Position numbers and translations under genes: made by a program
Part shown: positions 15,637 to 19,313 of the stretch, piece after piece
How the letters are laid out: the number at the start of each line of letters is the position of its first letter
Position numbering within the stretch: position 1 is the stretch's first letter
Notes under the pieces: model-generated
The model's input: only the letters and a program-made list of their open reading frames with translations
The model's database searches: none
What the model was told of the DNA's origin: nothing
NCBI GenBank assembly: GCA_017656165.1
Contig: JACDOL010000016.1
Coordinates: 1-35,882 of the forward strand
DNA: 35,882 nucleotides
Source of the DNA: Desulfotomaculum sp.
GTDB taxonomy: Bacteria; Bacillota; Desulfotomaculia; Desulfotomaculales; Desulfohalotomaculaceae
Direction: 5' to 3'

Positions 15637-17442
15637 TTATTCTTCCGGTTTGCTGCTGTCATTAACTGCAGCCGTGCTCTTGATGTGCAGTTCCCGCAGT
15701 TGGCTCCTGTCTACAAAATCCGGGGCACCGGTCATTAAGCATGTGGCACTGGCAGTTTTGGGGAAGGCAATAACATCTCTTATACTGTTTTTACCTGCCA
15801 GCAGCATTACCAGGCGGTCAAAGCCAAAGGCAATTCCGCCATGAGGGGGTGCACCATATTCAAAGGCATCCAGCATAAAACCAAATTTTATCCTGGCTTC
15901 TTCTTCTGTGAGACCGATAGCTTTAAACATTTTCTCTTGAATGTCCCGGCGGTATATCCTAATACTGCCTCCGCCTATTTCAACTCCATTTAGCACCAGG
16001 TCATAAGCCTTAGCCCGGGCATTTTCCGGTTGATTGTCCAGCAGTTCCACATCTTCATCAAGCGGTGCTGTAAATGGGTGGTGCATGGCTACATAGCGCT
16101 TCTCTTCTTCATCATATTCCAGCAGCGGGAAGTCTACTACCCACAAAAATTTATAAGTGTCTTTGGGAATAATATCTAAATGCTGAGCCAGTTTAACCCG
16201 CAGCGCACCCAGCGCCGCTGCCACCACATTTGGTTTATCAGCTACGAACAATAATAGGTCCCCTGGCTCTGCTTCCATTTTTTCTAAAATGGCATTAATC
16301 TCTTCTTGTTTAAAAAACTTGGCTATGGGAGACTTTACACCATTCTCGTTAACATAGAAGTAAGCTAAACCTTTAGCCTGGTATATGGATACAAAAGCTG
16401 TCAGATCGTCGATATCCTTACGGCTGAAACTGCCGCAGCCCTTAGCATTTATTCCCCTAACCTGGCCGCCGTTTTGAGCTGCAGAACTAAATACTTTAAA
16501 ATCACACCCAGCAGCCACCGGGGTAATATCTTTAATTTCCATACCAAAACGAATGTCAGGCTTGTCTGTACCATAACGATCCATAGCCTCACGATAAGAC
16601 ATTCTGGGAAAAGGCCTAGGCACCTCAACACCAACGGTCTCTTTTACCAATTGGGCTATCATTTCTTCCATTAAATCCATAACGTCTTCCCTGTCTACAA
16701 AAGACATTTCCAAGTCTACCTGGGTAAACTCAGGCTGCCGGTCAGATCTTAAGTCTTCATCTCTAAAACAGCGCACAATCTGGAAGTAACGCTCCATACC
16801 AGACAGCATCAACAGCTGCTTAAAGATCTGTGGTGATTGGGGAAGGGCATAAAATTTTCCTGGGTTGACCCTGCTGGGTACCAGGTAGTCCCTTGCGCCT
16901 TCCGGGGTACTCTTTGTAAGCATGGGTGTTTCAATTTCTAAAAAGTCATGGCTGTCGAGAAAATCACGTACCGCTTTTGCAGCCCGGTGACGTAAAATCA
17001 TTGCCCGCTGCATCTCAGGGCGGCGCAGGTCAAGATAGCGATATCTCAACCGTACATTTTCATCCACATCTACACCATCTTCAATATAGAATGGTGGTGT
17101 CTTGGCTTTGTTCAAAACAACTAAGGTATGGGCATAAACCTCTATGGTACCTGTGGCCATCTTTGGGTTTTCTGTTCCTTCCGGTCGTTTAGAAACCTTA
17201 CCTTTTACTGCCAGTACCCACTCATTTCTGATCATTTCTGCCTTATGAAAAGCCTCTTCGTTAACATCAGGGCTGAAAACCACCTGTACTATTCCATAGC
17301 GGTCACGCAGGTCTACAAAAATTAACCCGCCGTGGTCACGCCGACGCTGTACCCAGCCCATGAGTACAACTTCTTCTCCAATGCTGTCGCTGTTAATTTT
17401 ACCGCAGTAGTGAGTACGTTTTAATCCCTGCATAAACTCCAT
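15637..17442 (-). CDS. aspS: Aspartyl-tRNA synthetase, bacterial type
   Basis: The 601-residue class IIb enzyme has an N-terminal OB-fold anticodon domain ([23 protein letters not shown]), a catalytic core with motif 2 [23 protein letters not shown], a GAD insertion at about residues 290-410, and motif 3 [15 protein letters not shown]. The length and GAD insert are typical of bacterial AspRS. Whether it also charges tRNA-Asn cannot be decided from sequence alone without checking for asnS and gatCAB. ATG 17442 is well placed behind GGGAGGT. An in-frame extension to 17499 overlaps the hisS end and lacks a ribosome site. It is the second gene of the hisS-aspS operon, with hisS ending two bases before it. 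No clear terminator follows before the 6S region. Confidence 0.96.
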
Positions 17443-17443
17443 C

Positions 17444-18700
17444 TTACTTACCTCCCAGCAACTCGGGTATTTTGTCCACTGGTATTTCCTGCTGTTCACC
17501 AGTGTTCATGTCTTTCATCATTGCAGTACCATTTTTGAGTTCATTTTCACCTAGAATAGCAGTATAACGAGCATTTAACTTTCCAGCATATTTCATCTGG
17601 GCCTTTAAACTTCTCCCATTATAATCTTTATCAGCTTTATATCCTTTTTCCCGGAGTTTAGACAGCAGTTTAAAAGCAGTGCGTTCTGCTTCTGCACAGG
17701 CAGTAACAACAAAAATATCCGGCCGCCATGCCGGTGGAAATTTAACACCCTGCTGTTCCATGGTTAATATTATTCGTTCCAGGCCTAGGGCATATCCAAT
17801 TCCGGGTGTATCCTTCCCACCGCATTGTTCCACCAAACCATTGTAACGTCCGCCGCCGCCTACAGAACTCTGGGCACCAATTCCCGGGGCCATTATTTCA
17901 AAGGCTGTATGGGTGTAATAGTCTAATCCCCTTACCAGTTTTTTATCTACCACATATTCAATGCCTAAATCTTCCAAGTGTTCTTTTACAGCCTCAAAAA
18001 ATGCAGAACATTCATCACAGAGGCAGTCCAATGTCGTAGGTGCACCAGCAGCCAGGGCCCTGCACTTTTCGTTTTTACAATCCAAGATTCGCATTGGGTT
18101 TCGTTCAAAACGATCCTGGCAGGTTGGGCAGAACTGGTCAAGCCTGGTATGTAAAAATTCTTTAAGGCGCTCTCTTAACTTGGGCCGGCACTCTGGACAC
18201 CCCAGGCTGTTAATATGCAGTTCCAGGCCTCTTAATCCCAGGCGCTTGTAGACTTCCATGGCCATTGCAATTACTTCGGCATCAATGCCAGGACTGTGAG
18301 CACCCAGCACCTCTACTCCAAATTGGTGAAACTGGCGGTACCGTCCGGCTTGGGGCCGATCATAGCGGAACATGGGACCTATATAGTAAAGTTTTACCGG
18401 CTGCGGTCCGGTGTAAAGTTTATTTTCCAGGTAAGCCCTTACTACAGCGGCAGTTCCTTCAGGACGCAGGGTAACGCTCCGTTCCCCGCGGTCTATAAAG
18501 GTATACATTTCTTTTTCCACTATGTCGGTGGTTTCGCCTACCCCACGCTTAAAAAGTTCAGTATGTTCAAATATAGGTGTGCGGATTTCCCTGTAACCAT
18601 AGGTGCGGCATACATCCCTGATTACATCCTCTACAAACTGCCATTTTTCAACCTCTCCGGGAATAATATCATTGGTTCCCCGGGGCCTGTTGGTCAGCAC
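17444..18700 (-). CDS. hisS: Histidyl-tRNA synthetase
   Basis: The 418-residue class II enzyme shows the N terminus [10 protein letters not shown], motif 2 [20 protein letters not shown] and the histidine-specific motifs [15 protein letters not shown] and [15 protein letters not shown]. Motif 3 is [13 protein letters not shown]-terminal anticodon domain runs from about residue 325 to the end. A CPTC and CLCDEC cysteine cluster in the insertion (about residues 190-240) suggests a metal site, as seen in some Firmicute HisRS. GTG 18700 is preceded by GGGGGTG. It is controlled by the T-box leader upstream and is followed almost without gap by aspS. Confidence 0.96.
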
Positions 18701-18749
18701 TTTAACACCCCCGAACTAACAATTTAACTCCTATTACATACATAAATTT

Positions 18750-19019
18750 TAAAACCCGTCCCTAGTTATGCAAAAGCATACCCAGGGACGGGACAATTCC
18801 CGTGGTGCCACCCTGCTTGAACGCAATCGTTCCACTTTAATGGCGATAACGGATCCACCGGGCCAGCCTAATAGATGCTGTACATCGTTCAGCGGCCTCT
18901 CCCGGGTGTCTTTCAACGAACCTCCCTGCAGATGGGCTTCCAGTCAAGACCCATCCTCCCTGGCCAGGGATGTGTGCGCCTACTTTCCCGGTCATCGAGT
19001 TAACAGTTATAGTCATACT
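18750..19019 (-). promoter_or_regulatory. T-box riboswitch leader of hisS-aspS
   Basis: The minus strand carries the T-box sequence AGGGTGGCACCACG (18801-18814) followed by a terminator, CCCGTCCC 18755-18762 pairing with GGGACGGG 18785-18792 and ending in a T-rich tail. Stem I is visible from the specifier loop at about 18981-18992 (AAAGTAG, opposite CCGGG/CCCGG) to the distal GATGGG/CCCATC hairpin. On the 3' side of the specifier loop GAAAGACACC contains GACAC (18906-18910), which reads GAC (Asp) and overlapping CAC (His). Uncharged tRNA binding would let transcription continue into the synthetase genes. Whether both codons work is inference. Confidence 0.9.
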
Positions 19020-19025
19020 ATGAAA

Positions 19026-19054
19026 ATTGTAATAAAACAACGAATAAATGTCAA
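19026..19054 (-). promoter_or_regulatory. Promoter of the hisS-aspS T-box leader
   Basis: On the minus strand TTGACA (19049-19054) and TACAAT (19026-19031) are separated by exactly 17 bases. The predicted start of the T-box RNA is near 19019. Confidence 0.75.
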
Positions 19055-19059
19055 CAAGC

Positions 19060-19202
19060 CTACTGGGTAAATTCCTTTATAACTTTGGCCAGGCCGGGTC
19101 CTGGGTATTTAACTTCTTCATTTAAAACAATTATATTACTCCTTATATCATAACCATCTCCTTTGGCTGCTTTTTTACCATCAGTTCATCTATCATTATC
19201 AT
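19060..19202 (-). pseudogene. Possible small gene split by a -1 frame change
   Basis: The minus strand opens with GGGG and ATG at 19194-19196 and reads MIDELMVKK. At 19170-19176 it meets A-AAA-AAG in exactly the codon phase of the E. coli dnaX slippery heptamer. The zero frame stops ten codons later. The -1 frame continues as AAKGDGYDIRSNII and then NEEVKYPGPGLAKVIKEFTQ to a stop at 19060-19062, about 45 residues in total. The joined peptide has normal composition, and the two halves fit where the A run is. It may be programmed frameshifting, a one-base loss in an A tract (real or sequencing), or coincidence. I recognise no family. It ends only a few bases before the hisS promoter. Confidence 0.35.
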
Positions 19203-19262
19203 CTTCCCCTACTTATTTGGCGTATGAAGAGCCTAAAAAGTTCTCTTAAGCTGCAAACTTTC

Positions 19263-19291
19263 TTTAAATATACGCAGCTTTTGGATATAAT
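19263..19291 (+). promoter_or_regulatory. Likely promoter of the DUF896 gene
   Basis: A perfect TATAAT at 19286-19291 lies 17 bases after TTTAAA (19263-19268), a weak -35. The start codon follows 22 bases later, so the leader is short. Confidence 0.45.
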
Positions 19292-19313
19292 GGTGGTTGA
19301 GGTGATTTCTTAT

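Follow-up and report, generated by a model that had tools for sequence, protein, structure and literature searches.

Overlapping Asp and His codons in the hisS-aspS T-box leader of a Desulfotomaculum sp. and its probable response to tRNA-Asp

The hisS-aspS operon and its leader

The window, the whole 35,882-nucleotide stretch of Desulfotomaculum sp. DNA analysed here (assembly GCA_017656165.1, contig JACDOL010000016.1), carries on its minus strand a hisS-aspS operon headed by a full-length T-box leader. The features referred to below, in window coordinates and in the direction of transcription, are the following.

19026..19054, minus strand: predicted sigma-70-type promoter, TTGACA-17-TACAAT (consensus match only)
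18781..19004, minus strand: full-length T-box leader (match to RF00230 over model positions 1-219 of 219; 97.2 bits, above the gathering score of 93)
18987..18991, minus strand: CCGGG, 5' strand of the helix closing the specifier loop (all 5 bases pair with 18906-18902)
18981..18984, minus strand: AGTA, 5' side of the specifier loop
18908..18910, minus strand: GAC (Asp) specifier codon in the canonical slot (stem I covariance model)
18907, minus strand: unpaired A, the final base of the loop, directly after the specifier
18906..18908, minus strand: overlapping CAC (His) triplet, whose final C (18906) opens the 3' strand of the helix
18902..18906, minus strand: CCCGG, 3' strand of the loop-closing helix
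18807..18810, minus strand: UGGC in the T-box bulge, its C facing discriminator G73 of tRNA-Asp
18751..18792, minus strand: probable terminator hairpin and UUUU (by eye; arms 18792-18784 and 18763-18755, 9 perfect pairs)
17444..18700, minus strand: hisS, histidyl-tRNA synthetase (TIGR00442, 535 bits, cut-off 287)
15637..17442, minus strand: aspS, aspartyl-tRNA synthetase (NF001750, 921 bits)

The two family matches bear out the gene order given in the initial annotation, HisRS then AspRS; the start of aspS was set at the ATG at 17442, one base past the hisS stop. The promoter site is the best in 18600-19300 and matches 11 of the 12 consensus positions, which would place the start of transcription at about 19019. 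A simple terminator scan (rule: 5 T in 8) reports no site, and the tail of the hairpin reads UUUUAAAAUUU.

Immediately downstream of aspS lies a 6S RNA (RF00013; 15343-15536, minus strand). A 6S RNA is also found downstream of hisS in all 11 of the 11 Staphylococcus and Macrococcus loci scanned, at a spacing that would fit aspS.

The specifier loop reads GAAAGACA and runs into the helix strand CCCGG. Its 3' side carries the pentamer GACAC (18910-18906, minus strand) and a purine, A18907, follows GAC, both as first described. From this overlap of an Asp and a His codon it had been proposed that both triplets serve as specifiers, CAC being used after a two-base shift, such that one leader would sense two tRNAs.

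Only GAC aligns in the modelled specifier slot

The register of the loop was read with a stem I covariance model built from an alignment of 34 leaders with varied specifiers and run over three sets, its input being 100 of 103 loci from the order (Desulfotomaculales) and 81 of 107 loci from Bacilli and from Staphylococcus and Macrococcus. The model aligned a single codon of our leader, GAC, in the slot, an outcome named beforehand in the initial annotation as telling against two working codons. GAC corresponds to aspS, the second gene of the operon. Elsewhere in the order, T-boxes gave ACC, ATC, CTC, TTC, TCC, AGC, GCC, GTC, GGC, CCC, ATG and TGG in this slot; the register is therefore general and not fitted to Asp. 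Codon and gene agree in three loci that were checked, with ACC before thrS (L003) and ATC before ileS (L004, L302), and an aminotransferase gene stands behind the TCC leader L001. The genes of the control T-boxes were checked at these four loci only, the rest of the controls being named by their codons.

The predicted optimum of stem I (-37.8 kcal/mol) already leaves GAC and the A that follows it unpaired, so that presenting the Asp codon is free of cost. Unpairing CAC, by comparison, costs 3.4 kcal/mol, or 6.8 kcal/mol with one spacer base. The second codon is not fully presented in the loop, as it borrows the helix base C18906. These costs bear on the possibility that the loop-closing helix adopts two registers, GAC reading tRNA-Asp in one and CAC reading tRNA-His in the other, with each uncharged tRNA inducing both enzymes; they speak against an easily reached second register.

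The T-box bulge points in the same direction. Inspected by eye, the tRNA genes of this genome give discriminators G73 for tRNA-Asp, G73 for tRNA-Asn and C73, opposite G-1, for tRNA-His. UGGC pairs with G73 of tRNA-Asp and is mismatched to C73 of tRNA-His, and the bulge thus fits one of the two tRNAs rather than both. For His the bulge is a less telling test, since C73 may be base-paired within tRNA-His itself, the ground on which, according to a statement in TBDB, the discriminator is not used for His leaders. Of the proposal of two overlapping specifiers, then, the GAC half holds in both slot and bulge, whereas the CAC half draws on a helix base and meets a mismatched discriminator.

Conservation of the two triplets among hisS leaders

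Regions upstream of hisS were fetched from 103 loci of the order, 37 of Staphylococcus and Macrococcus and 70 of Bacilli (70 of 121 genomes looked at). A total of 146 leaders were read, ours included: 47 from the order, 31 from Staphylococcus and Macrococcus and 68 from Bacilli. They comprise 145 distinct leaders, L177 being the same as L197. The Staphylococcus and Macrococcus leaders fit the model poorly and were read by pattern for their own loop-closing helix in 31 of the 37 loci (unread: L161, L171, L178, L180, L181 and L182). L191-L199 were read by the loop-closing-helix pattern or by eye, L147 and L198 by pattern and L194 and L196 by eye. Since the HisRS tree places L193-L199 within the staphylococci, staphylococci number more than the 31. 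No T-box was found at L257 or L260.

The slot codon is GAC in 49 of these leaders and AAC in the other 97, with no third codon, indicating from comparison of the sequences that GAC is more than chance. The triplet two bases further on (+2) is CAC in 102 and CAT in 15; in the remaining 29 it is not a His codon (CCC in 8, CAA in 8, CCT in 6, CTC in 5, CTT in 1 and CAG in 1). The two codons are thus not conserved together, with 29 of 146 leaders lacking a His codon at +2 and 97 of 146 bearing AAC instead of GAC, and the alignment with other hisS leaders, like the folding costs, goes against the use of CAC after a two-base shift. A HisRS tree with 120 rows requires no fewer than 11 changes in whether +2 holds a His codon (CAY), and no fewer than 7 in the slot codon. 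The base of the bulge opposite the discriminator is C in 107 leaders, U in 29, A in 9, unread in 1 and G in none. Eight further leaders beyond the 146 read GACGG (6), GACAG (1) and GACAC (1), all with a UGGC bulge; all of these except the GACAC leader were read by eye (GAA spacing), one base off the alignment of the model.

Closer to home the pentamer is better kept, and this is a point in favor of sensing of both tRNAs: GACAC is present here, and all 3 leaders from the genus and all 7 GAC leaders from the order have it. Within the order our leader belongs to these seven, AAC filling the slot in the other 40 of 47; AAC is likewise the slot codon in those Staphylococcus leaders that were read.

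The same counts bear on the converse idea that CAC is the true specifier and GAC incidental. It would suit the position of hisS as first gene of the operon, and the S. aureus hisS-aspS T-box is named a histidine T-box in a passage of PMC7927825. CAC, however, is offset by two bases from the slot found by the model in other T-boxes, and it varies among leaders in which GAC or AAC is invariant (146 of 146), leaving this idea hardly credible. A search for T-boxes that do read His was made as a control: a pattern search in Bacilli, over 20 regions preceding weak HisRS-like (hisZ-like) matches, turned up no convincing T-box, the lone pattern match (L272) being judged by eye, and CAC stood in the slot in 0 of 50 T-boxes read (66 model matches, 14 further genomes).

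Probable origin of the overlapping CAC

Control T-boxes of the order, counted with L007 (the present leader), L012 (the same stretch as L009), L183-L185 and L187-L189 left out, show how such a triplet can come about. AC follows the specifier in 21 of 68 T-boxes with other NNC specifiers (in 6 of 7 after ACC and in 7 of 13 after ATC), and the first base of the following helix is C in 72 of 79. In the same genome the thrS leader reads ACCAC, the aminotransferase leader UCCAC and the ileS leader AUCAU, the last also with a His codon at +2. The ileS leader of a relative has CAC at +2 too, and CAC is found behind UCC, UUC and CCC specifiers. None of the checked genes with a His triplet at +2 (thrS, ileS, aminotransferase) has a connection with histidine. 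Two weak T-box matches on contig C39 of this genome read ATCAC and GTCAC. Given that CAC at +2 occurs in leaders of other genes such as thrS and ileS, the triplet is most simply accounted for as NNC + A + the first C of the helix.

There is nonetheless an excess of AC in hisS leaders, which favors a role for CAC. In the order, AC follows the slot in 37 of 47 hisS leaders versus 21 of 68 pooled controls (Fisher p 5e-7, uncorrected for shared descent). Among model-read Bacilli leaders it follows AAC in 16 of 17 and GAC in 11 of 42 (p 1.5e-6, uncorrected for descent), an enrichment in AAC leaders that is what a CAC role would predict. The case for CAC as more than chance is weaker than that for GAC. 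Taken with the cost of freeing CAC, the discriminator mismatch, its loss from 29 leaders, its repeated changes on the tree and its occurrence in thrS and ileS leaders, the excess of AC and the conserved pentamer leave sensing of both tRNAs by this leader unlikely, as judged from sequence comparison and predicted folds.

Two observations on the control set stand apart from this question. The two matches on contig C39 form a tandem (G000:C39:81-332, L012, and 431-685, L009), both below the gathering score. In this genome a CTC (Leu) T-box leader (L002; G000:C3:62574-62863, minus strand) harbors a tRNA-Ala(GGC) gene, on the same strand and between stem I and the AGGGUGG box. Related loci are L289, L297, L298, L300, L301 and L308. 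The control set holds 12 CTC leaders; ARAGORN was run on 9 of them and found the tRNA-Ala in 7, the exceptions being L294 and L295. A literature search returned nothing bearing on a tRNA-Ala gene inside a Leu T-box leader.

A clade of Bacilli with a UGGA bulge

The nine hisS leaders whose bulge reads UGGA (L200, L202, L204, L208, L209, L211, L213, L215 and L221) form one clade of Bacilli on the tree (9 rows, support 91), and all nine have a His codon at +2 (CAC in 8, CAU in 1). In one genome of this clade (G139) the discriminator is G73 in the tRNA-Asp and tRNA-Asn genes seen and C73 in the tRNA-His gene; UGGA would therefore pair with none of the three tRNAs, and this clade may read His. A bolder scenario may be drawn from these leaders, in which the slot flips between GAC and AAC as it tracks an AspRS charging both Asp and Asn, RACAC acts as a hinge towards His, the UGGA clade reads tRNA-His and GACAC leaders such as ours are dual intermediates. 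We regard it as speculative and unlikely.

Asp or Asn: the partner enzymes

The prevalence of AAC raises another possibility, namely that GAC meets the GUU anticodon of tRNA-Asn through a G-U pair, such that the leader may partly report tRNA-Asn, a tRNA that this AspRS might charge as well. Several findings are in keeping with it. AAC fills the slot in most leaders of the order, and tRNA-Asn shares G73 with tRNA-Asp. No asnS scored over the NCBIfam cut-off in this genome (99.9% complete), in which gatB is present, and the best-scoring solved relative of the AspRS by sequence is the Asp/Asn enzyme 4wj3. If the AspRS charged both tRNAs, either of them would be reasonable to sense. GAC here, on the other hand, matches tRNA-Asp perfectly, and a wobble pair at the first position would probably be weaker. 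According to a passage of PMC2494555, T-boxes before tRNA ligase genes carry the codon of that ligase in all cases, a rule that speaks against an Asn reading; the second ligase of an operon is treated there as possibly under another specificity. Reading of tRNA-Asn by our leader appears very unlikely. A literature search for an Asn specifier in hisS leaders returned no paper joining all terms within a coverage that leaves out key reviews.

Two candidate markers of the Asp/Asn choice were tried and set aside. The presence of AsnRS fails to sort GAC from AAC leaders in the order: asnS is present in 5 and absent from 2 genomes with GAC leaders, and is present in 30, absent from 8 and a fragment only in 2 of those with AAC leaders. 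Both congeners searched (G037, G038) have asnS. The second marker was residue 31 of AspRS, with His expected in non-discriminating and Leu in discriminating enzymes. This residue is His in all 45 T-box loci of the order in which the motif was found (GAC 7, AAC 38). Among 58 Bacilli loci whose slot was read by the model it is Leu in 57 and Phe in 1, and it is Leu in 36 Staphylococcus and Macrococcus loci. The marker is indecisive, however, the S. aureus enzyme being called non-discriminating in passages of PMC6523644 and PMC4206432 despite the Leu of the Staphylococcus and Macrococcus loci.

Proposed mode of action

We consider it very probable that this is a standard T-box of a hisS-aspS operon, sensing one tRNA species, uncharged tRNA-Asp, with CAC as a by-product of its architecture. 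The reading is based on the fold, the register, the fit of the discriminator and comparative conservation; tRNA binding, antitermination and the terminator are inferred. GAC would pair with the GUC anticodon of tRNA-Asp, and the UGGC bulge with its free GCCA end; the antiterminator would thereby be favored and both enzymes expressed. CAC would arise in passing, in that most specifiers end in C, A is a frequent next base in the loop and, in this lineage, C is almost always the first base of the helix beyond it.

Relation to known systems and implications

In codon slot, following base, helix and UGGN bulge, our leader is like the thrS and ileS T-boxes of its own genome, from which we found no difference that matters; at +2, thrS shares its CAC and ileS has CAU. 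The single-codon T-box of glyQS likewise has the same slot, following base, helix and UGGN bulge.

The overlap itself and the proposal of two tRNAs for hisS-aspS leaders are already in print. GACAC is described as characteristic of hisS-aspS T-boxes in a passage of PMC5313534, which cites Gutierrez-Preciado 2009 for an interaction mainly with tRNA-Asp, while a passage of PMC4342826 cites the same work for two alternative leader structures sensing both tRNAs, a proposal that counts in favor of dual sensing. Compared with the hisS-aspS T-boxes of bacilli and lactobacilli as reported there, our leader has the same operon and the same GACAC but belongs to another lineage, and the pentamer varies widely in our survey (GACAT, GACCT, GACAA, AACAC, AACCC, AACTC). 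A precedent for two-codon sensing is the T-box of the Clostridium acetobutylicum transamidation operon (Saad 2013, as related in parts of PMC4052509 and PMC7778990), which also has two overlapping codons in one loop and is reported there to bind both of its tRNAs, tRNA-Asn and tRNA-Glu. Unlike in that T-box as described in these passages, the second codon here takes a base from the helix, misfits the bulge and is not conserved.

Overlapping specifier codons have so far been taken to signal the sensing of two tRNAs by one leader. As ordinary T-box architecture already yields CAC or CAU at +2 in leaders of other genes, including thrS and ileS, an overlap is by itself weak evidence for such sensing. 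The sharper question is why many hisS-aspS leaders bear the codon of Asn and not that of Asp.
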